Shown: piece by piece, positions 3,790-37,552 of the stretch
How the letters are laid out: every line of letters starts with the position of its first letter
Numbering within the stretch: the stretch's first letter is position 1
From: Nymphaea colorata
Taxonomy: Eukaryota > Streptophyta > Magnoliopsida > Nymphaeales > Nymphaeaceae
Assembly: GCF_008831285.2 (NCBI RefSeq)
Contig: NC_045140.1
Location: 17,358,370 to 17,422,369, forward strand
DNA: 64,000 nt
Direction of reading: 5' to 3'
Translations under genes and position numbers: made by a program
The notes under the pieces: generated by a model
The model's input: the letters and a program-made list of their open reading frames with translations, nothing else
What the model was told of the DNA's origin: nothing
Database searches by the model: none

Positions 3790-3849
3790 ATGGCGGTCTG
3801 AAAAGCGAAAGAGGGAGACGTTTCCGGCGAGCTTTCGGCTGAAGACGCC

Positions 3850-4143
3850 ATGACGGTCGACTACAGAGCATGGGACGACGCGTGGTACGACGTGGAGCTG
3901 CACATGCAGGGGGAGGTGCTCACCGTCGAGTTCTGCAACCTGGAGCCCCCTGTGCGCGAGAGGTTCACTTCCTCGATGTTCCGGGATGATGCCGATGTGG
4001 AGTTGTTCCGGAAGAAGTTCAGGAGAAACTCCAGTCAGTTGCAGGATGGGGAGTGCCACAGAGTCCGCGAGGGGATGATGGTCTGCGGTTCGCTCTCCTC
4101 CACAGAGGGCGACCTCAGGTTCTATGATGCTAAAGTTCTTGAG
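3850..4143 (+). CDS. Diverged duplicate of the SAWADEE first exon (orphan or alternative first exon, possibly decaying)
   Basis: This open stretch encodes 98 residues aligning along its length with the first exon of the downstream SAWADEE gene; shared landmarks are DDAWY, SSQLQDGEC versus SEQLQDGQC, and DLRFYDA versus DVRFYDA. Extending upstream in frame gives ATG-GCG-GTC-TGA from 3790, matching the downstream ATG-GCC-GTC-GGA, so codon 4 has become a stop. From 3790 to the GAG|GTGAAG donor at 4143 the exon is exactly 354 nt, identical in length and phase to 4858-5211. Translation could restart at the ATG at 3850. I found no second exon for it before 4858. Either it is a dead tandem copy, or it splices in phase to the shared exon at 5642 as an alternative first exon. 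Homology is confident; function is unknown. Confidence 0.6.
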
Positions 4144-4857
4144 GTGAAGAGCTTGCAGTGTTTTTCTTACAGACTTTTCTCTGTTCTCTTTGTTTCGTGT
4201 TATGGTCTCTAGCTTCCGCACAAGGAGAAGCTTCTAATGAACAATTCATTCACGAATCACGAGCTGCAATATACTGTTGTTTGTTCAGTAAACATCTTTC
4301 CTCCAGAAACTTCTTCTTTGCAATGTCTATTTTGGAGATATTTGTTCTGTCTAATCAACCAATGAAAAAATTCTTAAAATATTTTAACATTTGGGGAATG
4401 AAGCTGAAGCTAGTGTTTAATCTCTTTTCGTGTAAAGGCCATGCCTTTCGTGAAAGTGAAATTCTTGAGAATTGAAAACGGCGAGGTTTACTTGGTATTC
4501 TCTTTGTTTTGCGGGGAACTTTGTTTCAATCTTTTATTTGACAAAAGAAGCGGCAGTTATTTAAAAAAGTTGTGTCCCTTCGCTAGAATTATACGGAAAT
4601 TCCGGTGTCGGAGAAGAAAATGTCTCTGCTTTTAACTGACTGTCCGCCGTCATTGTGGAAATGACGCAAGTGCCCCTCAGCGTTTGGTTCTCGCGAATAA
4701 GCGTATCTTGTTGGGTGTGGGACCGTGGCAGTGTTGTTCGTATTCAAAAAGGGGGTGGCATTTTCGAATCACGGCAAAATGAAAGGAGGATCCCGCGTCC
4801 ATCACCCGGTAACCACCGATTGTCCCGAGCCAGCGGCGGTTCCCGCGCTCTGGCGAG

Positions 4858-7800
4858 ATGGCCGTCGGAGAACGAAAGGGAACGCCGTATTCCGTGGAGT
4901 TCGCCGGTGAGATCGCGCCGGCGATCGAGTACCAATCCCCGGAGGATGACGCCTGGTATTCTGTTCGTCTGCGCCTGGACGGGGAGTCGCTCATTGTGAG
5001 CTACGTCGAGTTCCCGAACGAAACGGTCGAGCGGGCGGCCGGTTCGTTTCAGGACTCCGGAGAACTGGACGCATTCCTGGAGACGTTCCGGCTGACGTCC
5101 GAGCAGCTTCAGGACGGACAGTGCCGAAAAGCCTTCGAGGGGGTGAGCGTGTGCGCCGCGCACAGAGTTGGAGAGGACGACGTTCGATTCTACGATGCTG
5201 TCATTGAGGCGGTAGGTACAGAGAGTGGGGGTACCAGGGTTACGCTTTTTGGCTAATTGTTGGTGGTTTATGTTCCTCTTTCCTGTTTCTGGGGATCTTG
5301 GACTGTGAATCAATGGAAAAGAAGATTGATGATTTAGAAGATACTGAATCTTGGACTGGATGGTTTCGTTGTTCTTATCTTTGAGAGTTTTAAGTGTAAT
5401 GAATCCCTGTCGGTTAGAACTTAGACGGTTACTGGGAAGAAGACAAAGGAGAATTATGTCGCTATGGTTCACAATATTCTTGGTGATGGCTCATTTTAAG
5501 TATGAATTCTTGATAGGGATGGGATCTCTGTACAGTCGTGGTGGAAATAGCATTCGTTGTTTCTGCTACTTGTTGATCAACTAGAGAATGAATGTCTCGC
5601 TAATGTTTTGTGCGGATCTTAGTTGGTGCTTTTTTATGCAGGTATTTCCTGCTGAACACAAGGTTGTTGACGGAGAAGAAGAATGCCTATGCAAGTTTGT
5701 GTTACTTTGGCTACATGGTCCTAATGCTGGTTCCACAACTTGTACCGAAATTGCAAATATTTGCCTGTTACGGCATGGCAATGCTCAAATTCATCCGCTG
5801 TTGGATGCCTTTGTGAATATTTCTAGAAAGAAGATCAACCAAAGGTTGCAGTCACATGCCAGCTCTGGAGTTGGGTTTTCTGGTGGCAGTGTTGGTTCAC
5901 ATGCATCTCTTCCTGCTGTAGTTGGCCAAGAGTTGGTTTGTAAGAGCCTTTCACTTTCCAGTTCAAAGTTTCGTCATTCAACAAGTTGTAAGGATAGTGG
6001 CATCACTTTGACTAGAAAAGATGGTAGCAGCTGTCGGGGTTCACAGGAGATAGTGGGGGGTGTTAATGTTGGAAGTGAAGCAGAAAATATAGTCGGTAGA
6101 CCTGAAATAGCGACTAAGTGGCATTATTTCATAATCAACAATTTGGACCCAGAATTGTCACCAGCAGATATAGTGAATTTCATTTATCATCATACGTCTA
6201 TCCTGTGCAATGTGTTCTTCGGACCCAAGCTGTCAACTGAATATTGTTCTAGAGGAATTGTCTTTCTAGAAGGCGAAGAAAATCTTGGGAAGCTATCAAG
6301 CTTTCTGGAGGACCCATGTCAACTTATCACGTCTTCTACTGGCAGGTAATTTCCCGTAGGAGGATATTTGTTTCCTTGTTTAGTCCATAAGTTATATATA
6401 TGGTTATATTCATTAACATTTTTTCAAAATATCACCAGGGAACATCAGTTTTAGAGTCTGGACAGTAATGCAAATTTGTGGACAAGCTATGTAAAGAAGT
6501 TTCTTTAATCCATGGCACATGCATATTTTTGAGGCACGAAATTTAGTATCCTAATGTTGCATTCTCCAATCATAGATGTTTGATGCAATGAAGCTTAAAT
6601 TGGACAATATTGGATTTGTTTAGTTGACACTTGATGTGTAATTAAGAAAAACTTGAAATAAGTCCATTTTGGAAAGAGAAGTAGCGCTTGCTTGGTCTTA
6701 AAGGTAAGAGAATTCAGAGAATGTGTTAATGACAGAAAGGAACTGAAGTTCATGACTCCGAGCCCATGCTTGTTCACGTATATTGACAAGTTGTATAAGT
6801 GATTAATTTGTTCAACACTTGAAACTTGTTCACTATTTTTTTTTGTCAGCATTATCAATTTCCAGAATTATGTTTTCCAGCAATGGTATTTGATCTCTTT
6901 TGATATTCAAAGGGAATGCATTGATGATTGAACACAAGGACCAACTACTTAATGTGTTGGAAGTATTTCATGATTAGTGCCTTGGATGGTCAGCTACCGA
7001 CTACATGTGGCTTGAAATGCCTTCTTTGGACATGTGATTCATGCTGTTATGTTTTTCATGTCTTGAAATGACCAATTTTTGTTCTATTGTGCTGAAGGTT
7101 AAGGATGAGAATATCTAGCTGATCAAATTGGCCCTTGATATGCTCAGTTGACAAACCTTCATCTCTTTTCTCCATAAACTTGAATGGGAAATTCCTAGTG
7201 GATTCGCTATTGGATATGACGGCATCTGAAACTTGAGTGGATTTGATTAAGACCAAGGAAGCCTTCCTAACAAATAGACCGTGCTTTTCTGATGTCAATT
7301 AGAGATGCTTAGTAATGCTGCCTGCGTATGTGAAAGGGCCTTTAAGAAGGAGAAAATAGTATAAATTGGGAAATGTGGAATCCTTTTGGAAAATAGTGGT
7401 GAAAAAATCTTTTGCTTTTGTTGCATGGGTTGGAGTAAAGAAAGATGCATCAGGAGAAGAGATTTTCTTAGTGATGAGTAATGGGGTGTTTCAAGAAGAT
7501 ATTCTTAGAGGTTTATGTAAGATATGGAGGACTGACAACATGAAATGACAAATATTTGGGGCCAGTGTGGGATTTCTGCATTAGTTGACAAACTTTCATC
7601 TCCTTGGTCATGGCTCTTCTCGTGCTGCTTCATAGTGCAATGTAATTAATGAGATCAGAGAAATTCAGTGTGACATCGTAGGTTGATTTGATAATTGAGG
7701 GTCATATTTCTTGAACAAGAATTCTCGTCCCTCCGCATAATTAAGCTTTTCTGAGTCTTGTAGTTTGTTGGTTAACGATTAGCTTGTTTAGTATTGTTGT

Positions 7801-17053: not shown

Positions 17054-17128
17054 ACAACCGTATCCATTGTTTTTATTGAAGGTTAAGTAGGACCGAAGAG
17101 GAAGAGGTGAGAGAGAGAGAGAGATAGA

Positions 17129-20100
17129 ATGGGGAGGGAGGAGATGAGTCTGCACAGCAGCATAGGAGCAAGAGGCAGAACCATGTACAAGTTGTTTGTG
17201 GCCTCAAATCTTGCAGGGATTATGGGCATCCTCTACTACAGAGCCACCAACATCCCCCGTGAAGGCCCCTCTTTAAGGCTTCTAGTTTGGGCAGCCATGT
17301 CCCTCTCTGAGCTCTGGTTTGGTTTCTATTGGCTTGTTACTCAGTCTGCCCGCTGGGATCCCATCTATCGATCCACCTCCAAAGATCGGCTCTCCAACAG
17401 GTACCCTTTTGCTTTTCCGTGTCCTTCACTCTGGTCAAGTAACAAGTGCTGTCTTCTACAGTTTTCTTTTTGTTTTCTGAATCAAATTTGTTCCTGACCA
17501 AAATCTCTGTTTAGTTTGAACATCTTCTGCATTTAATTGCTTTTCTTCCTTTTAACAGTAACAGTTTCATCTATCCACCTAGTTAGGGCGATCGATTTTT
17601 AGGTCCATCAAACTGCTGGACACCTGGTAAGAGTGCGTTGCTTGGTTGGTCCTGTGACTCCTGTCTTTGATCGCAAATAGCTTTCTTTGTATGCGTCCTT
17701 TCTTTCATGGGCTACCTTGACTATAAGATTATTGAACTACATCTGAGGAATTTCATAATTCTATTTCGCTGTAATAAACTTCTGCACGTGGTAATCTACT
17801 GTTGTAAGCCAATGGAGAATCAAAATCAAAATCAGGATCACAGGAAATGGGATCTCATTTCTCCGCTGAGGCTCAGGATTATATTACAAGTTTTGCAGAA
17901 AACATTAGATCAATCACGTCAACTTGATTTCTCGTATTGCAGGATAAACATCATAAAACCAGATGACATGATTTTAATTGGTACAATTTCCTTCGGCATG
18001 CATGTAACTCGATAGAAAAAAGAAAAAAAAAATCAATCTTCGTCTTTCGACCAAATTTAGTAGTGTCTACAATGTCGCACATGAACACGAGGGGAGAACT
18101 GTTTTTTCTAGTTTCTATCGCAGAAACGTCAAAACTTTTGGTAAACAAAAATAAAAAAACAGAGTTATGAATCCTCATTGCCCCTTTGTTGGGCCAGTTG
18201 GTGCTTCACAGGAAATAGCACAGGATCCACGTTAAACAAGCACTTGTTTAGAAAAAAGGAGTAAATCCTAAAATGGCATTTTGTACCAGTTGGTACAACA
18301 GGAGTAAATTCTGAAAAGGCATTTTGTTTTGTCGTTTCTTAGTTATTCGTCTTCTTGCTCGACCGCTCTGTAAATGATAAAGTGATTAAAGTCCGGCGAC
18401 CGCCTCTCTTTTTTAAAATTTTTCTTCGTCGAGCTTCACTAGATCTTGGTGGTCGGGCCTTGTTCACTGAAAATTTCATAGAAAGGCACTCAACGTTTCA
18501 AAGAATGGGATTAAGGTTTTAGTTCTATTTATTTGACTTTTTTTCTTAATTGCAATTTGGGTGGTCGAGTGAAAGAATTTCATTGACTCAGTTCAGCGCA
18601 TTTTCCAGTTCCCAACCCCCAAAGAAAACTAGTTTGGCCCCAATTTCAACGTGAGCTTAACAAGAACTTTCAATACTAACGATACAGCAAGAAACCAATC
18701 ATTTTGATTGAATATTGCTAGGAGTAAGCAATCATCTTGAGACAACAAAAACGTACTCTGTGTTTTCCATGGACCAAAAGTTGGTGAGAGCTTCGGCTCT
18801 TTGCGGACGGTGGTCTCCCCACTCTCACCAAAAATCTTAATTCTTTATTCTTTTTTCTGTAAAAGGGCAATGCTGTGGGACATCAGATTGTTGAAATAAT
18901 GTGAAGATTTACTTTATAGATCTGTGCCAACAGGTATGCACCGCAAAAAAAATATAAAAAATATAAGAAACGACAAGAGGACGGTTTGGAACCTGCCACC
19001 TCCTTGGAAATCGTCCCGTTTCAACCTGGGCAATTTTTTTTTTTAGTATTTTCCGTTCTATATCTCTTGATTGCTTTTTAAGAGTCACAAGAATAACGTC
19101 CGAAGAATTTTTGCTTCACCAAACGGACTGCAAAAGTAAGCCTACTAGTACTGGGGAAGTCGAAATTTTTTAGGTGTAATCTGGCATTTAGTTCCAACTC
19201 AAATAAAGTATAATTGATGAATTTTAAGCTCTATCAAGTTTATTACAAAAGTGACTTTAGTTGGGAACTCAATCGTTTGGATATAATATAATATTTGATT
19301 GGAATTCGAATTCAGCCGTTTCGTTCAATGAGAAAATCCAAATGAAATTGCAACTAGATGCGTACATAATTAATGGTTTTGATCAAGTGAACAGGTTTGA
19401 AAGGGAGCTGCCGGGGGTGGACGCCTTCGTGTGCACTGCAGATCCATGGAAGGAGCCACCGTTGCTCGTCATAGGCACAGTGCTGTCTCTCATGGCCTAC
19501 GACTACCCACCGGAGAAGCTCAGCGTATATCTTTCGGACGATGGCGGCTCCGACTTGACGTTGTATGCCCTCCTTGAAGCCTCTGCCTTTTCCAAGCACT
19601 GGCTGCCCTTTTGCCGGAAGTTTAAGATCGAGCCCAGGTCGCCGGCCTCATTCTTCTCCACCAATCCTGATCCGCCCCTCACCTCTTCGCAGGAATGGTC
19701 GACCATGAAGGTCTCTCTCTCTCTCTCTCTCTCTCAATGAGAGCCATAATAAATTCTATGCTTATTGGTTGTTGTTCTCATTCTCGTGATTGCGTTACAT
19801 GGTTCAGAGCTTGTACGAAGAGATGGCGCATCGTATTGAAAGTGCAGTCAGTTTAGGCAGAGTTCCACCAGAGATTCGTGAAGAACACCAAAGGCTTTTC
19901 TCTGAGTGGAATTCAGGCACAAACTCACGCGATCATCCAGCAATACTCAAGGTAGACGGGAAGATTTTGGCAGCAGGACTAAAACGCAAGAAACACTTTT
20001 TTTGGCTGCACATTGTTTATAATTCTGAAAACTCGATCATATCCTCGCTTTTCTTTGATTAATTTCAGATACTAATTGGTGGTGGAGACTCAAAGGCAGT

Positions 20101-22183
20101 AGACGTCGATGGGTGCCCATTGCCAACTCTTGTATACTTGGCCCGTGAAAAGAGGCCTGGCTACCCTCATCATTTCAAGGCTGGAGCTATGAACGCCCTG
20201 GTAATTTATTCACATTTTTCTCCTAAATATATGTCATATGTATTCATACATCCTCATTCTCATTCCTAAAAATAATTCTCGCTTTCTTTGGCTTGCATGT
20301 AATGAGCAGCTAAGGGTATCGGCCGAGGTGAGTAATGCTCCCATAATACTCAATGTGGACTGCGACATGTACTCTAACGATTCACAATCTGTAAGAGATG
20401 CATTGTGCTTCTTCATGGACGAAAAGACGGGAAGCCGAACTGCATTCGTTCAATTCCCTCAGCGTTTCGACAACATCACCAAGAATGACATCTATGATGC
20501 GTCGTTATTACTCTTCACCGAGGTGACTAATGCCCAAGTCATTCACTTTTCCTGTATTTTCAATATATTCAGTCGTCCTGGATCCGACCCCTTTTCAATT
20601 TCAATCTGCACTGTAGGTGAATTCACTTGTGATCTCTTAAAAAGTTCACTTTTTTTATTTTTTTTTAGTTTTTTTCTTTTTATTTTACCCGATACTGCAA
20701 TGCAGAAAGAGCTTCTTCGCTGATCACTGCGAAAACTTTCCAGGTTGAATTTTATGGACTTGATCGATTCGAGGGGCCATTGTATATTGGGAGTGGTTGC
20801 TTCCATAGAAGAGAGAGTCTTACTGGAAGGGAATATAGCGAAGACTTCAAGGGAGATCTGAATGGGAGGATGTGGAGCAAGCCTGTGGGAATGGTTGAAG
20901 AATTGGAAGAGAGAAGCAGGAAACTTGCTGCTTGTTATTTTGAAGAGAACACTCTATGGGGAACTGAGGTCCCTTTCTCTCTCTCTCTCTCTCCTCCTCA
21001 TTCCCTCTCTCTGTCTCTCTATATCTAAATCAAAAGGTGGGGTTTGTGCAGGTGGGATTGAAATATGGGTGTCCAGTGGAGGATGTCATAACTGGGCTTT
21101 CAATACAATGTAGAGGGTGGAAGTCTGTTTATTTCAGCCCAAAGAGAGCTGCTTTCTTGGGGCTTGCTGCCACTACCCTAAATGATGTATTAGTTCAACA
21201 AACGAGGTGGTCTGGAGGAGATTTTCAGATCTTAATATCTAGATACTCACCTTTCCTCTGCGGCCCTAAAAAAATAAGCCTTGGTCTTCAGATGTGTTAT
21301 TGCATCTATTGCTTGTGGGTCCCCAATTGCTTTCCCACTTTATGTTATGCTATTGCGCCATCACTTTGCCTCCTCTATGGAATTCCCATGTTCCCCAAGG
21401 TATGACTCTCGCTCTCTCTCTCTCTCTCTTTCTCTCTCTTTCTAACAGAGGAAATCTATGTTCATGTTCATGACATGGTGGCATCCTATATGTATATGTA
21501 TAGATTCAGATCATTTTATTAATTTGCAATGTAGACTGTTGGTCTGTTCAGAAAGACTGCAATTTATGTTCTGTGATGAGTTAATTATATAGTGATAAAC
21601 GTTGGTAGAACTGATCTTGCTTGACATTTTCTTAATGCAGATCTCCAGTCTTTGGCTTATACCTTTTGTATATGTTTGCATAAGTTCTTATGGGTACAGT
21701 CTGGTGGAAATTTTATGTGTGGGAGGTACATTTAAGATGTGGTGGAATGCACAACGAATGTGGATGATGAGAAGGGTGACATCCTACTTCTTTGCATTCC
21801 TCGACTTCATCTTGAAGCTTGTAGGCATGGGGGAGATGAAATTCACAATAACATCCAAAGTTGCAGATGCGGAATCAGAAACCCGATACAGGAACGAAAT
21901 CATGGAGTTCGGAACTGCGTCGCCCATGTTCATATTGCCCACAACACTTGCTATACATCACTTGGTGTGCTGGGTAGTAATGGTTTTCAGGGTGGTGGAG
22001 AAAGGAATTGGAGTTTTGGATGACCTGTTTGTTCAAGCTGCATTATGTGGCTTCTTGGTGCTCATCAGCCTCCCCATTTATGAAGCAGCATTCCTTCGTA
22101 GAGACAAGGGACGGATTCCTACATCAGTTACTTCCATCTCTGTAACATTAGCCTTGATGATATCATTCTTAGCTGCACGCTGA
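17129..22183 (+). CDS. CSLE1: Cellulose-synthase-like protein E1-type, array copy 1 (eight exons, 730 aa)
   Basis: A family GT2 membrane glycosyltransferase of the CslE group, probably in Golgi/endomembranes; the substrate of CslE enzymes is poorly defined. Exons: 17129-17400, 19395-19710, 19808-19951, 20069-20200, 20310-20522, 20744-20968, 21052-21399, 21641-22183 (TGA); all phases agree. Two membrane helices lie near residues 17-65 ([30 protein letters not shown]). The catalytic core has [12 protein letters not shown] (first Asp), [11 protein letters not shown] (DxD), PVEDVITGL (ED) and QQTRW (QxxRW). About six C-terminal membrane helices follow. The length matches the family. All introns are GT-AG here. 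Intron 1 is 1,994 nt against 81-113 nt in the other copies. Introns 2, 6 and 7 begin with CT-repeat tracts. It is closest in type to CslE rather than CesA because it lacks an N-terminal RING-type zinc finger and is about 730 aa. Confidence 0.9.
17401..19394 (+). other. Expanded intron 1 of CslE copy 1
   Basis: This 2-kb intron is about 18-25 times longer than the same intron in copies 2 and 3. It is AT-rich, and no transposon protein is visible. It contains a short imperfect duplication (GGAGTAAATCCTAAAATGGC at 18259 and a similar segment at 18301) around a GTACCA-GT-TGGTAC palindrome. I could not identify the source of the extra sequence. Confidence 0.6.
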
Positions 22184-25010: not shown

Positions 25011-25048
25011 GAACAGTAGACAATGAAAAAACAGAGCAAGAGAGAGAG

Positions 25049-28000
25049 ATGGGGGAAAGGAGAGAGGAGATTCCTCTGCACAGCAGCAGAAGAGGAAGAA
25101 GAAGAGGAAGAGGCATGTACAGACTGTTGGCAGGCATCAACCTTGCGGGGATGGTGGCCGTCCTCTTCTACAGGGTAACCAACATCCCCCATGAGAGCCT
25201 GAGCCTAAGGCTTCTGTGGGCAGCCATGACACTCTCGGAGCTGTGGTTTGTTCTATATTGGATCATGAATCAGGCCGTCCGGTGGGATCCCATCTACCGA
25301 TCCACCTTCAAGGATCGACTCTCGCTCCGGCAAGTTTGCTCTTCACCTCCTCCGAATTAACTTGACCACCATCAGGCGGCTTCACTTGTCGCAGACTTTT
25401 GCGGCGAAGTCACAGTTTAAACTTTTTCGTGGTTCAAAGCAGGTTCGAAGAGGAGCTGCCAGGGGTGGACGCGTTCGTGTGCACTGCAGATCCATGGAAG
25501 GAGCCACCGTTGCTCGTCATCGGCACAGTGCTGTCTCTTATGGCGTACGACTACCCGCCGGAGAAGCTCAGCGTATATCTTTCTGACGACGGCGGCTCCG
25601 ACTTGACGTTGTATGCTCTCCTTGAAGCCTCTTTTTTCTCCAAGCACTGGCTGCCCTTCTGCCGGAAGTTTAAGATCGAGCCCAGGTCGCCGGCCGCATT
25701 CTTCTCCGCCGAAGCTGTTCCGCCCCTCACCTTTTCACAGGAGTTATCGACCATGAAGGTCTCTCTCTCTCTCCCTCGATCTCTCTCTCGATCTCTCGAT
25801 CTTAATAAAGAACCATGATTAGCTCTACTCTTATTGGTAGCTGGTTCTTATACATTCCATGATTGTTGCTACATGTTTCAGAGCTTGTACGAAGACATGG
25901 CGAATCGTATTGAAAGTGCTGTCAGTCTAGGCAGAGTTCCACCAGAGATTCGTGAAGAACACCAAAGACTTTTCTCTGACTGGAATCCAACAACAAACTC
26001 ACGAGATCATCCTTCCATTCTCAAGGTAGACAGGAAGATGGCTACCGGATTAAACGCAACAACTTATTTTGCAGCACCATTAATCGTCACCGCAATTTAT
26101 TTTGTTTGCTTTTTTTCTTTTTTAATTTCAGATACTAATTGGTGGTGGAGACTCAAAGGCAGTAGACGTTGACCGGTGCCCATTGCCGACTCTTGTGTAC
26201 ATGGCCCGTGAGAAGAGGCCCACCTATCCCCATCATTTCAAGGCTGGAGCTATGAATGCACTCGCAAGTAATCCAACCCATTATTCAATAAAGGCTTGGT
26301 ATCTTCGGAATCGGGGAGTAGTTTGTTGTCCGTAGAAACAACATTTGTGAGTGTCTCATGAATCTATCTTGTGATAAATTCAATTAGACAATCACAATAT
26401 TTTCTTATGCCAAACAAATCCTTAAGTACTCGATTCATGAGGAGTCAGGCCGGACCGTGAAATATGGCCTTGAGCCAGCATAATTATTTTCTGAGTCAAG
26501 CATATATATATATATATATATATATTATTACCTGGTTGTGCTGGCTGGCTGCACCGGAATGATGCCACAGCCATGGGCACAAGCTGCAAGCTAGTCCGAT
26601 GCCTAACCCTACTTAAACATGGTTCAGTTTCATGACCCTACATAGAAAATAAAGTCAGGATTGTTATGACAACTTAGTTAAAAAAAATTAGTCAGGTTTT
26701 CCCTGGCAACTTAGGTCAACTAAACCTGTGATCCGAGTAACCGAAGGAACAATATTCAAGCTTGGTTCAGTTTGCGAGTGAAGTTACCCGTGCTTAAGCT
26801 GATTCAGGCATAGAGTTAAACAAGCAGAACCCAAGCTAGCTTGGTTTCATGCAAAATGCACCTAGACCGAGCATGGCATGTTCATTTTTCTTTAAGCTCA
26901 AACAGCATCTTTGTGGACCGAACCGAGCGAGCTGAACGACGAGTAGCTTGACTTGTTTCATAACCCTAATAGTTACCGTTTTGATTTAGATTCTTTTACT
27001 GATTTACGCAGTTAAGGGTATCATCAGAGATCAGCAATGCTCCCATAATACTCAATGTGGACTGTGACATGTATTCCAATGATTCACAATCCGTAAGAGA
27101 TGCATTGTGCTTCTTCATGGACGAAAGGACGGGAAGCCGAACTGCATTTGTTCAATTCCCTCAGAAGTTCAACGTCACCAAGAATGATCTTTATGATGCT
27201 TCTTTACTTTCCTACAATGAGGTAAGAAATTCTTTAACTTGCCATTGATATATAAAAGCAACTCAATTACGATTTTCAAGTTATATTAACTGGGAATACT
27301 CACGATGGTTGGGTGGTGTATGTATCAATGGATACGATTATGAATACTGTATTGCATCTCCCTGGTGAGACTTGGGTGGCATCCAAGATGTTTTTTGCTG
27401 CCGTCCATAAGGGGGTGTTTGTAATCAAACACCCCATAAGGGATTCGTGAATGAGAAGAAATGACACATAATTAATCGGTTGTATTTTGATTTAGTTTCT
27501 TTTCGTTGTTCCCAATTTTCTGATAGTATATTTTGTCCTCCATTTTCTATGTGCATTAGTTCTGCACATGAACGTAACATGATTGTATCCCGCCAGAATA
27601 CTTGTTTTAGTTTTTTGTTTTACTTTTTTGCATAGAATTTCCCCTTTCTGTTGTTGGACTTACCAAAGAAATCATCTTGAAATGCACCAATGTAGAATAT
27701 CCTTTGACCCATTCAATTGAATCCTAATGCCTGAGCGACTCGGTCATTGTTGTCTACCAGCTAAAGTAGCACTGAAACTTTTGAGAAATCAAATGGGTGC
27801 TTTCCTGTCTTCCATATCAACTGTGTTCTCTCTGGAATGAGGTGGCAGGACACCCGCCGTAGCGAATTTTATAGTTGTTATCATATTCTTGTAATTGTTG
27901 AATTGTGGGAAGGCAGAATCCTCAGGATTATGCCAACTGGAACACTGTGGGTGTCGAAGTCTAATGTTCTTCAACTTGAGGGTCCTCCGCAGAACCCTAA

Positions 28001-29433
28001 CGAGGAGGGCAGGAGTCATGTTAATGCTGCAATATGTGCATTTTGCAGGTAAATTCATATGGATTTGATGGATTTGAGGGAATGATGTATATCGGGAGCG
28101 CATGCTTCCATAGGAGAGATTGTCTCACCGGAAGAAAGTACAGTGATGATTTCAAAGGAGATCTTAATGGAAGGACATGGAAGAAGTCTTTGGAGAGTGC
28201 TGATGTATTGGAAGAAAGAGGAAAATTTCTTACTAGTTGTGCCAGTGAAGAGAACACTATGTGGGGAACAGAGGTTTCTCTCTCTCTCTCTCTCTCTCTC
28301 GCTCGATCTCTTTGTCCAACAAAACTTGGGTTTTGTGCAGGTGGGATTGAAATATGGTTGTCCTGTGGAGGATGTCATCACTGGGCTTGCAATACAGTGC
28401 AGAGGGTGGAGATCTGTTTATTTCAATCCGAAAAGGGCTGCTTTCATAGGGGTCGCCCCGGCTACCTTGAATGACACCTTAATTCAAAGAGAAAGGTGGG
28501 CTGAAGGAAACTTTCAAATTTTCCTCTCCAGATACTGCACTTTTGTATATGGGAAGGGGAAGATAAGCCTCGGCCTTCAGATGTGCTACAGCATCTATGG
28601 CCTCTGGGCTCCCAGTTCCTTGCCAGCGTTGTGTTATGCAATTGCACCTTCACTTTGCCTCCTAAATAACGTTTCTCTGTTTCCTAAGGTACCTCTCTCC
28701 CTCTCTCTAAGTATCGGCTCATCTGGACTCTTTCAAAGAAATGAGTTGCAGGAACTTTTTCCATATGACATCCCATTGATGTGGTTTTTGTACATGACAT
28801 GAAGTAGAAGAATATTAAAGGTCATATCATACTGACAAACAAGACATATTGCATATACTAATGTGTGGCAATTTGTTGATCCAGATATCTACTCTCTGGT
28901 CCATACCTTTTGTATATGTCATCATAAGCACATATGGATACAGTCTGGTGGAGTTTCTGTGCTTAGGAGGCACATTTAAGTTCTGGTGGAACGGACAACG
29001 AATGTGGATGATTAGAAGAGTAACATCCTACTTCTTTGCATTCCTTGACTCAATGTTGAAGCTTATAGGCATGGGGCAGATGAAATTCACAATAACATCG
29101 AAGGTTGTGGATGCGGATGCAACAGCTCGATATGAGAACGAAATCATGGAGTTTGGAATTGCATCACCCATGTTCATATTGCTCACAACAGTTTCAGTCC
29201 ATAATTTAGTGTGCTTGGCAGCACTAGTTTTTAAAGTGGTTGTGAACGGAATTGAAGTTCTGGATCCCCTGTTTTTCCAAGCAACTTTGTGCGGATCCAT
29301 GGTGCTACTCAGCCTCCCCATATATGAAGCAGCATTCATCCGTAAGGACAAAGGGAAGATACCAACAGCAGTTGCTTTTATCGCGGTCATTTTAACATTG
29401 GCGATATCATTCTTGGCAGTTCTTTATGAGTGA
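25049..29433 (+). CDS. CSLE1: Cellulose-synthase-like protein E1-type, array copy 2 (eight exons, 734 aa)
   Basis: Second tandem CslE gene, same architecture as copy 1. Exons: 25049-25329, 25443-25758, 25882-26025, 26132-26263, 27012-27221, 28049-28273, 28341-28688, 28885-29433 (TGA); phases agree throughout. The N-terminus is Arg-rich (RRGRRRGRG), then two membrane helices. Catalytic landmarks are intact: [30 protein letters not shown] and QRERW. Intron 1 is predicted to be GC-AG (CCG|GCAAGT) and intron 4 also GC-AG (CTC|GCAAGT, where copy 1 has CTG|GTAATT); only these donors keep phase. Introns 4 and 5 are enlarged (748 and 827 nt) and intron 4 resembles that of copy 3. One residue is missing in exon 5 relative to copy 1 (KFNVTKND versus RFDNITKND). 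It appears functional if the GC donors are used. Confidence 0.9.
26502..26525. repeat. (TA)n microsatellite in intron 4 of CslE copy 2
   Basis: About 12 TA units inside the enlarged intron 4. Confidence 0.9.
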
Positions 29434-30819: not shown

Positions 30820-30889
30820 GTGCCAGAGATTTCACTCACACACACACGCACACGCACACACAGTGCCAGAGATTTCACTCACACACACG

Positions 30890-30926
<37 letters not shown>
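30820..30926. repeat. Duplicated compound (CA)n(GA)n microsatellite
   Basis: The sequence GTGCCAGAGATTTCACTCAC occurs twice (about 30820 and 30862), each time leading into a CA repeat; the second continues into a GA repeat. A unit containing the flank was duplicated along with the microsatellite. Confidence 0.85.
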
Positions 30927-33252: not shown

Positions 33253-33285
33253 GAATGGAAAATCAGAGAGATCAGAGAGGGAGAG

Positions 33286-36200
33286 ATGGGGAGAAAGGAG
33301 GTTCCTCTGCACAGCAGCAGAAGAGGAAGAGGAAGAAGCATGTACAGACTGTTGGCTGGCATCAACCTTGCGGGGATGGTGGCCGTCCTCTTCTACAGGG
33401 TGACCAACATTCCCCATGACACCTTGAGCCTAAAGCTTCTGTGGGCAGCCATGACACTCTCGGAGCTGTGGTTTGTTCTATATTGGATCATCAATCAGGC
33501 CGTCCGGTGGGATCCCATCTACCGATCCACCTTCAAGGATCGACTCTCACTCAGGCAAGTTTGCCCTTCACCTCCAAAATAACTTGACCACAGTTCTCTT
33601 AACGAGCTCAGGCTTTGCTTGGTGGCTGCGAACAGGTTCGAAGAGGAACTGCCCGGGGTGGACGCGTTCGTGTGCACTGCAGATCCATGGAAGGAGCCAC
33701 CGTTGCTCGTCATCGGCACGGTGCTGTCTCTCATGGCCTACGACTACCCGCCGGAGAAGCTTAGCGTATATCTTTCTGACGACGGCGGCTCCGACTTGAC
33801 GTTGTACGCTCTCCTGGAAGCTTCCGCCTATTCCAAGCACTGGCTGCCCTTCTGCCGGAAGTTTAAGATCGAGCCCAGGTCACCGGCTGCATTCTTCTCC
33901 ACCAATCCCGATCCGCCCCTCACCTCTTCGCAGGAGTGGTCGACCATGAAGGCCTCTCTCTCTCTCTCTCTCTCTCTCTCAATAAAGAACCATGAGTAAT
34001 TCTGGTCTTAGTTGTCCTTATACGTTCTTCTCGTGATTGTCGTCACATGTTTCAGAGCTTGTACGATGGCATGGCGAATCGTATTGAAGGTGCAGTCAGT
34101 CTAGGCAGAGTTCCACCAGAGATTCGTGAAGAACACCAAAGACTTTTCTCTGACTGGAATCCAGCCACAAACTCACGGGATCATCCAGCGATTCTCAAGG
34201 TAAAAGGGAAGATTAAACGAAGAAACATATTTTGCTGCACCATTATTAATAATACTGAACGCTTGATCCTATCGTCCCCTGTTTTTCTTTCGATTATTTT
34301 CAGATACTGATTGGTGGTGGAGACTCAAAGGCAGTAGACAATAATGGGTGGCCATTGCCAACCCTGGTGTATTTGGCTCGGGAGAAGAGGCCTGGCTACG
34401 CTCATAATTTCAAGGCTGGAGCCATGAATGCACTTGTCAGTAATCCAAGGCCATCGTCAATTGTGTGCCGACCTCTTTTCTGAATAGAGGCTTGGTATCC
34501 TAAAGCTCGGTTCAGCTTCCCCTAACGTAGAAAATTAGCCAGGATTCCAATTAAGGCAGCTTAGCTGAAGTTAGCTTGTGATCTGAGTAGCAAAAGGGAC
34601 AAATTTTTTGGATGCATGTATGTATTCAAGCTTGGCTCATTTCATGGTGAACCTAGATGTGCTTAAGCTGATGAACCCATAGATTTAAACGTGTACAAGC
34701 TGAACCCAAGCTAGCTCGTCAATCTGCACATGAATTGCACGGCCTCAACCTTAGAGTACTGAACATGCCAAGTTCATCTTTGTAAGCTTAAACAAAATAA
34801 TTGGCAAGCCAAGCTGGGTGGGCTCGCTGGCTTGATTTGTTTCCCTGCCCTAGTTGTGATCATCGTTGTCTTGTGAACAAAGTGTAACGACCCCGACCAC
34901 TACTACTACACCAAGCTTGGGCCCCTGGTTTGATAGATCCGGTTTTAGGTCGAGCTTTCAAAAAGGTCAAGAACCATGACAACCAATCACATAATAACCA
35001 TTTCTATAAGTCTCCCTATATTCTTTATAATCTTAAATACTGGATTAAACTATTGAAGTGTTACACAAGGTGGGGGACTGTGTAAAGCTTTTTACTTTGA
35101 ATTAGGGTCTGAAAAAAACTTGTCTTTCCATGAACAGAATTAGTACTTGCCTTAAATTTAGAAGTTGGATCGTTTCATCATCGATGTCTTCCTCCTTTTC
35201 CTCATTTTGATTTAAATGGTGCAGTTAAGGGTATCATCAGAGATAAGCAGTGCTCCCATAATACTCAATGTGGACTGTGACATGTATTCAAATGATTCAC
35301 AATCAGTAAGGGATGCATTGTGCTTCTTCATGGATGAAAAGACGGGACGCCAAGTAGCATTTGTTCAATTCCCTCAGCGCTTCAACAATGTCACCAAGAA
35401 TGATATTTATGATACTTCCATACTAATCTACAATGGGGTAAGAAACTATTTAACTTCTTGTGAACGCTCTATTGCATATCTTGGTAGTAGAGGCGTGGGT
35501 GGCATCAAGATCAAATGGCACCTAATCTCTTCTTTTGTTGATATTTCGAGTTAATTTTCTGCTTTTCCCCCCCATTTTTTTTATAATGATCTTTCGTCCT
35601 GCATTTTGTCCGTTGCGTTAGCTGTGCACATGATCCGGACATGAACGTATTCGTCATAATACTTTTTAATTATTCGTTCTTTGTTTTATCTTTTTTACAA
35701 AACATTCCTATTTTAAGTTGTTCGACTTTCGAAAAGAACTTCTTCGAATACATCGATCGATGAAAATATTTATAAACGCTCAACTGAATCCTAAATATCA
35801 CTGAAACTTCTATAAATCAACTGTGGCACTTTCGAGTAACATACCAGGACAAGCGCCTTGACCATTTTCTTGTCATATTTCTAGTAATTGTTGAGCTGAG
35901 GGTAGACAGACTCCGATTTTGCCAAGAACGCTTGTAGGTATCGAAGTCTAACCTTCTTCAATTTGAAGGTGCTGCGCAGAACCAATAACAAGCAGGGTAG
36001 AGATCATGTTGGCACATGGAATAGTTTCGATAATGCAGCGACATGTGGATTTTGCAGGTAAATGCACATGGATTTGATCGATTTGAGGGAACAGCATATG
36101 TTGGAAGTGGATGCTTCCACAGGAGAGAGATTCTCATGGGAAGAAAATATAGTGATGATTTCAAAGGAGATCTGAACGGGAGAATATGGAGGAAGCCTTT

Positions 36201-36308
36201 GGAAAATCTTGACATATTGGAAGAAAGAGGAAAATTTGTTGCTAGTTGTGCCAGTGAAGAGAACACTATGTGGGGAACAGAGGTCTCTCTCTCTCTCTCT
36301 CTCTCTCG

Positions 36309-36342
<34 letters not shown>

Positions 36343-37552
36343 TAACAAAACTTGGGTTTTGTGCAGATGGGATTGATATATGGGTCTCCTGTAGAGGATG
36401 TGATCACTGGGCTTGCAATACAGTGCAGGGGGTGGAGATCTGTTAATTTCAATCCAAAAAGGGCTGCTTTCATAGGGGTCGCCCCGGCTACCTTGAATGA
36501 CACCTTAATTCAAAGAAAAAGGTGGTGTGAAGGAACCTTTCAAATTTTCCTCTCCAGATACTGCCCTTTTGTATATGGGAAGGGGAAGATAAGCCTTGGC
36601 CTTCAGATGTGCTATAGCATCTACGCCCTCTGGGCTCCCAATTCCTTGCCAGCGCTATATTATGCGTTTGCACCCTCACTCTGCCTCCTACATGACATTT
36701 CCTTGTTTCCTAAGGTAAAAAACCTCTCTCTCTCTCTCTCTCTTAAATTAAGTATCGGCTTATATGGACTCTCCTTTCAAAGAATTCACAGTTGCAGGAG
36801 ATTCTTAATAGACATTCCATTGATGTGGTTTTTTATATATAACATGAAGTGTAATATTAAAAGGCCACACGGACTCATGTACAGTCGCTCTTTCTCACCA
36901 CTGTTCTGGAAATATGTGTGCACTTTTGGATATATATTTAGAGTTGACATCTATGTCCATATCCTCGAGAACACGACATATACTAATGCTTAAAAATTTG
37001 TCGACCCAGATATCTGCTCCCTGGTCCATACCTTTTCTGTATGTAAGCATAAGTACTTATGTGTACAATCTGGTGGAGGTTCTGCTTTTGGGAGGCACAT
37101 TTAAGATATGGTGGAACGGACAACGGATGTGGATGATCAGAAGAGTAACTTCCTACTTCTTTGCATTCCTTGACTCGATGTTGAAGCTTGTAGGCATGGG
37201 AGAGATGAAATTCACAGTAACATCAAAGGTTGTTGATGCGGATGCAACTGCTCGATATGAGAACGAAATCATGGAGTTTGGAATTGCGTCTCCCATGTTC
37301 ATAGTGATGACGACAGTTGCAGTCCACAATCTAGTGTGTTTGACAGCCCTAGTTTTTAAAGTGGTTGTGAACGGAATCAAAGTTCTGGATGCCTTGTTTT
37401 TCCAAGCAACTTTGTGTGGATTCATAGTGCTCCTCAGCCTCCCCATCTACGAAGCAGCATTCCTCCGTACGGACAAAGGGAGGTTACCAACATCAGTTGC
37501 CTTTATCTCAGTCGCGTTAACATTGGCTATATCGTTCTTAGCGCTCCGCTAG
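33286..37552 (+). CDS. CSLE1: Cellulose-synthase-like protein E1-type, array copy 3 (eight exons, 729 aa)
   Basis: Third tandem CslE gene. Exons: 33286-33554, 33636-33951, 34056-34199, 34304-34435, 35225-35437, 36058-36282, 36367-36714, 37010-37552 (TAG); phases agree. Catalytic residues are intact: [30 protein letters not shown] and QRKRW. Two N-terminal and about six C-terminal membrane helices are predicted. Intron 1 is GC-AG with a textbook donor (CAG|GCAAGT). Intron 2 also begins GC, but with a poor context (AAG|GCCTCT), where copies 1 and 2 have AAG|GTCTCT; if unspliced, the frame ends soon after in the CT tract. The last residue of exon 5 is Gly where copies 1 and 2 have Glu. Expanded introns 4 and 5 link it to copy 2. 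It may be functional, or partly impaired by the intron 2 donor. Confidence 0.88.
36284..36340. repeat. (CT)n followed by (TA)n at the start of intron 6, CslE copy 3
   Basis: A CT run begins directly at the GAG|GT donor and is followed by about 15 TA units before the acceptor at 36366. The two tracts make up most of this 84-nt intron. Confidence 0.9.

Follow-up and report, generated by a model that had tools for sequence, protein, structure and literature searches.

The question raised by this locus is why, in three tandem cellulose synthase-like genes of Nymphaea colorata, a CT repeat begins just inside the 5' end of the same introns in every copy, and whether such repeats are accidents of placement or a part of what allows these introns to be spliced. 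The window, by which we mean the whole stretch of 64 kb that was analysed, holds the three genes at the following places.

17129 to 22183, + strand: CslE gene c1, coding, 8 exons and 7 introns; spliced model of 730 aa with intact frame and catalytic motifs; exon 8 matches PF03552.
25049 to 29433, + strand: CslE gene c2, coding, 8 exons and 7 introns; spliced model of 734 aa with intact frame and catalytic motifs.
33286 to 37552, + strand: CslE gene c3, coding, 8 exons and 7 introns; spliced model of 729 aa with intact frame and catalytic motifs; exon 5 matches PF03552.

It is noted that the label CslE is the naming of the sequence-only reading that preceded this work, our own assignment being at the level of the family and resting on PF03552 and the motifs. 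The cellulose synthase superfamily is defined by the motifs D, D, D and QxxRW. In the spliced gene models of the trio, with frames of 729–734 aa, DDGGSD, DCD, VED and QxxRW are found in all three proteins, and c1, c2 and c3 each have a PF03552 match in the genome-level family search, so that both marks of the superfamily are present. A search of solved structures also finds the trio to be akin to cellulose synthases, and no relatives of it were found in viral contigs or in bacterial and archaeal contigs. By simple counting, the nonsynonymous/synonymous ratio is 0.33 on the c3 branch versus 0.41 on the c2 branch, which does not suggest that c3 is decaying.

Some features of the surroundings are recorded here. 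A GA repeat lies just 5' of the start codon in c1 (17109–17124) and in c2 (25039–25049), and a looser GA-rich stretch lies just 5' of that in c3 (about 33262–33285), the strand sense of these tracts being opposite to that of the intronic CT runs. Between c2 and c3, at 30820–30915, there are two 43-nt units, each closed by a CA repeat. Two adjoining frames with a SAWADEE domain (PF16719), at 3802–4209 and 4813–5253 on the + strand, are probably a tandem pair. On the strand opposite to the trio lies a HECT-domain gene, which we take to be a UPL gene and call UPL below, with 9 donors examined.

The runs in introns 2, 6 and 7 of the trio are as follows, with the first intron base counted as +1 and with a slash marking the exon-intron boundary.

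19712 to 19735, + strand: c1 intron 2 (19711–19807), pyrimidine run from +2, (TC)12; donor AAG/GTCTCT.
20970 to 20999, + strand: c1 intron 6 (20969–21051), 30-nt pyrimidine run from +2, with perfect (TC)9 from +8; donor GAG/GTCCCT.
21412 to 21443, + strand: c1 intron 7 (21400–21640), 32-nt pyrimidine run from +13, preceded by a short CTCTC at +7; donor AAG/GTATGA.
25760 to 25777, + strand: c2 intron 2 (25759–25881), 18-nt pyrimidine run from +2, then CT blocks interrupted by GA; donor AAG/GTCTCT.
28275 to 28300, + strand: c2 intron 6 (28274–28340, 67 nt), 26-nt pyrimidine run from +2; donor GAG/GTTTCT.
28692 to 28708, + strand: c2 intron 7 (28689–28884), interrupted 17-nt CT run from +4; donor AAG/GTACCT.
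33953 to 33980, + strand: c3 intron 2 (33952–34055), 28-nt pyrimidine run from +2; GC donor AAG/GCCTCT.
36284 to 36307, + strand: c3 intron 6 (36283–36366), (TC)12 from +2; donor GAG/GTCTCT.
36723 to 36744, + strand: c3 intron 7 (36715–37009), 22-nt pyrimidine run from +9; donor AAG/GTAAAA.

It was claimed in the sequence-only reading that all nine of these introns have a CT run close behind the donor and that introns 1, 3, 4 and 5 lack it. Both parts of the claim hold. The nine positions listed there are the first bases of introns, as confirmed by the 8-exon gene models with intact frames; pyrimidine runs of 17–32 nt, starting at +2 to +13, are present at 9/9 of the donors; and a CT repeat is near the donor in none of the 12 introns 1, 3, 4 and 5, among which c1 intron 4 carries 10 nt of mixed pyrimidines at +15. 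Moreover, the + strand of the 64 kb has nine perfect CT runs of at least 10 nt, all of which fall within eight of the nine introns, the ninth, c2 intron 7, having an interrupted run with no perfect repeat of 10 nt and thus not being a microsatellite. In intron 2 the perfect CT repeat extends over 24 nt in c1, 14+10 nt in c2 and 26–27 nt in c3. In UPL a donor-adjacent CT repeat is present at 0/9 donors, perfect CT runs lying deeper in two of its introns and a mixed 15-nt pyrimidine run lying at +10 in one.

While nine of nine is right as a count, it does not stand as nine independent cases, since the genes are tandem paralogues and introns 2 and 6 can be aligned between the copies, leaving three ancestral introns (c1 intron 7 hardly aligns with c2 and c3 intron 7 except at the ends, with 44–52% identity). 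If CT/GA runs were as dense at donors as elsewhere in the window, 0.011 of the seven ancestral donors would be expected to carry one versus three that are seen, this comparison being post hoc. The codon-based dS, computed by the NG86 method, is 0.28 for c2/c3, 0.63 for c1 versus c2 and 0.69 for c1 versus c3; relative to c1 it is 0.20–0.33 in exons 2–3, 0.78–1.25 in exons 6–7 and 0.45–1.25 in the gene outside exons 2–3. The low dS in exons 2–3 suggests that gene conversion spanning intron 2 may have occurred between c1 19395–20068 (exons 2–3 and intron 2) and c2/c3. Two TA repeats are present in the trio, each confined to one copy. In c3 intron 6, a TA repeat (36311–36344) is inserted directly behind the CT run, and c1 and c2 are without it.

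It was also argued in the sequence-only reading that the donors of introns 2 and 6 are weak and that the run supports them. The weakness is borne out by the predicted pairing with U1, which is −3.0 to −4.2 kcal/mol (mean −4.0) for introns 2 and 6, −5.6 to −6.8 kcal/mol (mean −6.0) for trio intron 7 and −6.5 kcal/mol on average for the 21 other donors examined. As an argument for the tract, it is only partly valid because the repeat itself sits on +3 to +6: a run starting at +3 brings about a poor fit at +3 to +6, and the link between the run and the weak donor is thus partly circular. The runs of trio intron 7 start further in and follow donors of ordinary strength, yet these runs are the best conserved. 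Donors of comparable weakness that lack a run are present in the window at UPL introns 3 and 7, c2 intron 4 and c3 intron 4. At the run-free homologous intron 2 donors of related genes, the U1 pairing is −6.8 to −11.4 kcal/mol (computed for 6 of the 11 run-free genes), and at intron 6 it is −7.3 in L019 and −6.6 in C11m. Judged from these predicted values, the stronger donors at run-free homologous introns would fit compensation as well as simple overwriting.

One of the weak donors had been overlooked in the earlier reading as not being a GT. The donor of c3 intron 2 is GC (AAG/GCCTCT, 33952–33953), with a U1 pairing of −3.0 kcal/mol that is among the three weakest of the 30 donors. Under the structure of c1 and c2, the predicted GC is the only frame-compatible donor; retention of the intron would stop the frame at codon 211, and c3 keeps an intact frame despite this donor. 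GC-AG introns amount to 4/21 in the CslE genes (c2 intron 1 at 25330–25331, c2 intron 4 at 26264–26265, c3 intron 1 at 33555–33556, and c3 intron 2), those of intron 1 in c2 and c3 being common by descent, and this share is far above the value of ~2% or below that is given for all non-GT-AG splice sites together (PMC7072748). As AAG/GCCTCT and GAG/GTTTCT pair poorly with U1, caution is called for in gene finders.

Whether the runs were retained, as the sequence-only reading supposed, can be seen from the homologous introns of related genes. In the window's own genome (408 Mb), 13 stretches were taken, which hold 11 further Csl genes and bring the total with the trio to 14; the 11 are the most CslE-like by exon pattern in the family search rather than the full Csl complement, and with some introns unplaceable in some paralogues the number per intron is 8 to 14. 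A tree of exons 2 and 7 has three clades, consisting of c1–c3 with C11m, of C13, L019, L017 and L018, and of the cluster L009–L014, with between-clade identity of 41–52%, about as distant as from one CesA (43–49%). With a run defined as pyrimidines of at least 10 nt starting at +3 to +15, it is present in 0/9 of the Csl genes at intron 1, 3/14 at intron 2, 4/8 at intron 3 (one clade only), 1/14 at intron 4, 1/10 at intron 5, 11/14 at intron 6 and 13/14 at intron 7, where the one exception, C11m, has a CT repeat at +20. Under the stricter definition of four CT units by +20, the values for introns 1–7 are 0/9, 3/14, 3/8, 0/14, 0/10, 9/14 and 8/14. Pooled, introns 6 and 7 with 24/28 versus introns 1, 4 and 5 with 2/33 give a strong contrast, although among paralogues that are not independent. 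The runs recur over the three Csl clades at introns 6 and 7; retention does not hold for intron 2, at which they are confined to the window trio.

Among the background donors, taken from UPL and three CesA genes, the run is present at 4/27 and the CT units at 1/27; two of the four runs belong to one CesA gene, at the introns homologous to 6 and 7, and it is the only one of the three CesA genes with runs there. For the CesA introns, 3 of the ~9 CesA-like loci were modelled by dynamic programming, with 18/30 predicted introns used and 12 dropped as unreliable. In the CesA-like locus L053 (on C12), CT repeats come after GAG/GTCTCCCTCCCTCCC at the homologue of CslE intron 6, where the other two CesA genes examined have none. 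As to length, the intron 6 run is 10–12 nt in five genes of L009–L014 and broken in L010, versus 24–30 nt in the trio, which suggests that slippage lengthened an originally short run; in intron 7 of C13 the CT repeat is over 50 nt.

On the further possibility that donor-adjacent CT runs occur by chance throughout this species, counts were made in the whole 408-Mb genome, in which there are 362 sites of AGGT(CT)7.5 and 401 sites of BGGT(CT)7.5, where B is C, G or T. AG stands before GT(CT)7.5 at 362/2892 sites (12.5%) versus 304/6316 (4.8%) before AT(CT)7.5, giving an odds ratio of 2.8 and a surplus of ~220 sites with AG before GT(CT). At −2, the ratio of A to not-A is 362:401 before GGT(CT) versus 308:720 before GG(TA)8, the latter being near base composition; a donor-like excess of A thus precedes CT repeats and does not precede TA repeats. 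G is not enriched over A ahead of CT runs overall (2892 vs 6316), implying that donors are a minority of such sites. Together with the recurrence at homologous introns 6 and 7, this association supports the view that the runs are not accidents of placement: the observation is real, non-random and wider than could be known from the window.

Some of the genes in which such sites lie can be named. The first 30 of the 131 AAGGT(CT) loci were examined, and 26 of them with open frames were compared with Pfam, L029, L030, L036 and L050 being left out of this step as having no open frame of at least 25 codons. Nine of the 30 have a match above the curated cut-off, two have one below it and 15 have no match. 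The nine are a V-ATPase G, a DJ-1, a CTP synthase, two SWEET-type transporters, two neprosin-type and two LRR genes; since the two neprosin genes lie close together, as do the two LRR genes, the nine represent about seven independent genes. The Pfam match ends at most 4 residues from the donor in 7/9 and ~14 residues before it in the two LRR genes. The divergent SWEET-type genes L039 and L040 both have AAG/GT and, behind the same part of MtN3, a CT run longer than 50 nt, and their CT-run introns are apparently homologous. A codon-usage classifier for the exon ends at AAGGT(CT) sites failed on 16/21 known donors and was dropped in favour of open frames and Pfam.

The most likely reading of the pattern is that it exaggerates a known splicing aid and is not an accident. 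Donor-proximal pyrimidine tracts are described in ~20–40% of introns with a mean of 10–14 nt, nearly all of 22 eukaryotes show an enrichment of them within ~20 nt of the donor, and their presence is inverse to donor strength in A. thaliana and in all metazoans studied except C. elegans (PMC2766253); pyrimidines starting within this distance are found in 9/9 of the window introns 2, 6 and 7. The reading that we prefer, with a probability of about 0.5, is that the CT runs are microsatellite-expanded forms of this tract, aiding splicing via pyrimidine binders that hold U1. Based on this reading, a short pyrimidine run by the donor of introns 6 and 7 would be ancestral to the CslE genes and their relatives, in some genes replication slippage would have converted it to a CT repeat, and runs would have originated separately in intron 2 of the trio and in another clade's intron 3. 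The repeat would often mask +3 to +6 of the donor, which would then be recognised through pairing of the exon-side AAG/G or GAG/G with U1, with pyrimidine-binding proteins on the CU repeat keeping U1 in place.

What is observed here comprises the position of the runs, their recurrence in paralogues, the genome-wide donor association and the specificity for CT versus TA. As the intron 7 donors are ordinary and the weak-donor link is partly circular, that the run helps splicing is what we infer, and so it is with the binder, which would be a UBP1/RBP45/47-type or a PTB-like protein. Alternating CU is a textbook ligand of PTB. TIA and UBP1 proteins, to which the sequence-only reading had appealed, are described as U-rich binders, and PTB-like proteins would be at least as plausible. 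A bolder and quite unlikely extension is that the CU microsatellite replaces the intronic half of the donor code, so that the exon-side AG/G plus a CU platform of variable length would be enough, the T of GT being dispensable (c3 intron 2). If it is true, around two hundred donors would have a fast-mutating splicing enhancer tunable by slippage, and repeat-length polymorphism would be splicing polymorphism.

The runs could also be explained without any splicing role, by seeding of repeats at pyrimidine-rich intron starts, slippage up to the invariant GT and tolerance given by strong exon-side bases. Introns 2 and 6 align between the copies, so that their runs are common by descent; conversion over intron 2 is suggested by the low dS in exons 2–3; introns 2 and 3 acquired runs only in single clades; the runs of introns 2 and 6 come no closer to the boundary than +2 or +3; and the run-free homologues have canonical donors (intron 2 in the 6 computed of 11, and L019 intron 6), as if overwritten elsewhere. 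All these are consistent with seeding, which nonetheless has to give a reason for the choice of introns, with recurrence at 6 and 7 and near absence at 1, 4 and 5. It also meets the facts that there is no donor-like A excess before TA repeats, and that the CT repeats outlast a dS of 0.78–1.25 (exons 6–7), which the TA repeats do not. We thus regard it as rather unlikely. An explanation by RNA structure, with the CU run keeping the donor unpaired or pairing with GA elsewhere in the transcript, is scarcely credible. In the predicted folding, the intron 2 and 6 donors are slightly more open than shuffled ones in 4/6 cases (z 0.6 to 1.5; ~0 in the two remaining cases), but these differences do not exceed noise and c3 intron 7 behaves oppositely (z −1.6); donor accessibility was rejected as a cause because of this inconsistency. 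Pairing of repeats within an intron has been described for the AC/GT repeats of fish introns. In the introns studied here, such pairing of the CT run within its own intron was rejected, no perfect GA run of at least 10 nt being present.

Two other proposals give the repeat a function different from aiding the donor. As CU repeats are a classical PTB ligand, the tract could regulate intron retention or alternative donors through PTB-like binding, tuning or lowering expression; retention would add a stop codon for 8/9 of the run-bearing introns (the exception being c2 intron 6), but this is unspecific because it is true of most introns. Plant PTB does act via pyrimidine-rich motifs 3' of a cassette exon, there promoting inclusion (PMC10914923), and we consider the regulatory proposal very unlikely. 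The remaining proposal, to which we give a slim chance, is that the repeats work as DNA, being intronic GA/TC elements through which BBR/BPC GAGA factors regulate transcription. GA/TC repeats are targets of BBR/BPC proteins, and in Arabidopsis and rice extended GAGA motifs are reported as enriched, in an orientation-dependent way, in introns and around transcription starts (PMC6477699); GA/TC repeats are present in the trio introns, and GA repeats or a GA-rich stretch lie just 5' of all three start codons. This would, however, leave unexplained the abutment on the donor and the genome-wide AG before GT(CT), and also the presence of CT on the sense strand in 9/9 introns, which, as 3/3 ancestral ones, is weak evidence.

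If the run aids splicing, as the reading of an expanded donor-proximal tract has it, these would be natural donors in which a microsatellite has replaced the +3 to +6 consensus, with the run-free homologous introns of the same genome serving as natural controls. The share of the donor signal that a plant can shift into a downstream pyrimidine tract would then be directly testable, and variation in repeat length would be linked to variation in splicing.

As for known systems, no paper on donor-adjacent CT microsatellites in plants was found in the open-access literature by titles and abstract openings, most subscription journals lying outside it, which is weak evidence of novelty. The nearest likeness is to the TIA-bound tracts (Gal-Mark et al. 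2009, PMC2766253), which also lie within ~20 nt of the donor and in one case beside donors poor at +3 to +6. The window runs differ from them in length, perfect CT reaching 24–27 nt here and over 50 nt in C13 intron 7 versus a mean of 10–14 nt, in that the trio repeat often overlaps the donor, and in being alternating CU rather than U runs. In the same study no TIA1/TIAR homologue was found in A. thaliana, UBP1 and RBP45 being named as the related plant binders of U-rich elements in introns. The elements of these proteins (PMC2766253, PMC2682935) resemble the trio runs in being pyrimidine-rich, intronic, of plants and said to support suboptimal sites, and differ from them in that the trio runs are half C.

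In the plant PTB reporter (PMC10914923), inclusion of the cassette exon needs downstream pyrimidine-rich motifs, similar to the present runs in lying 3' of an exon; there the exon is a regulated cassette, whereas here the introns are seemingly constitutive, as far as sequence tells. The repeats bound by BBR/BPC (PMC6477699) share with the present ones the GA/TC dinucleotide in plant introns, but they are elements at the DNA level with no reason to adjoin donors. Finally, c3 intron 2, intron 1 of c2 and c3, and c2 intron 4 start with GC and end with AG as the described GC-AG introns do (PMC7072748), and among them c2 intron 1, c3 intron 1 and c2 intron 4 keep GCAAGT, whereas c3 intron 2 has GCCTCT, without the consensus at +3 to +5.
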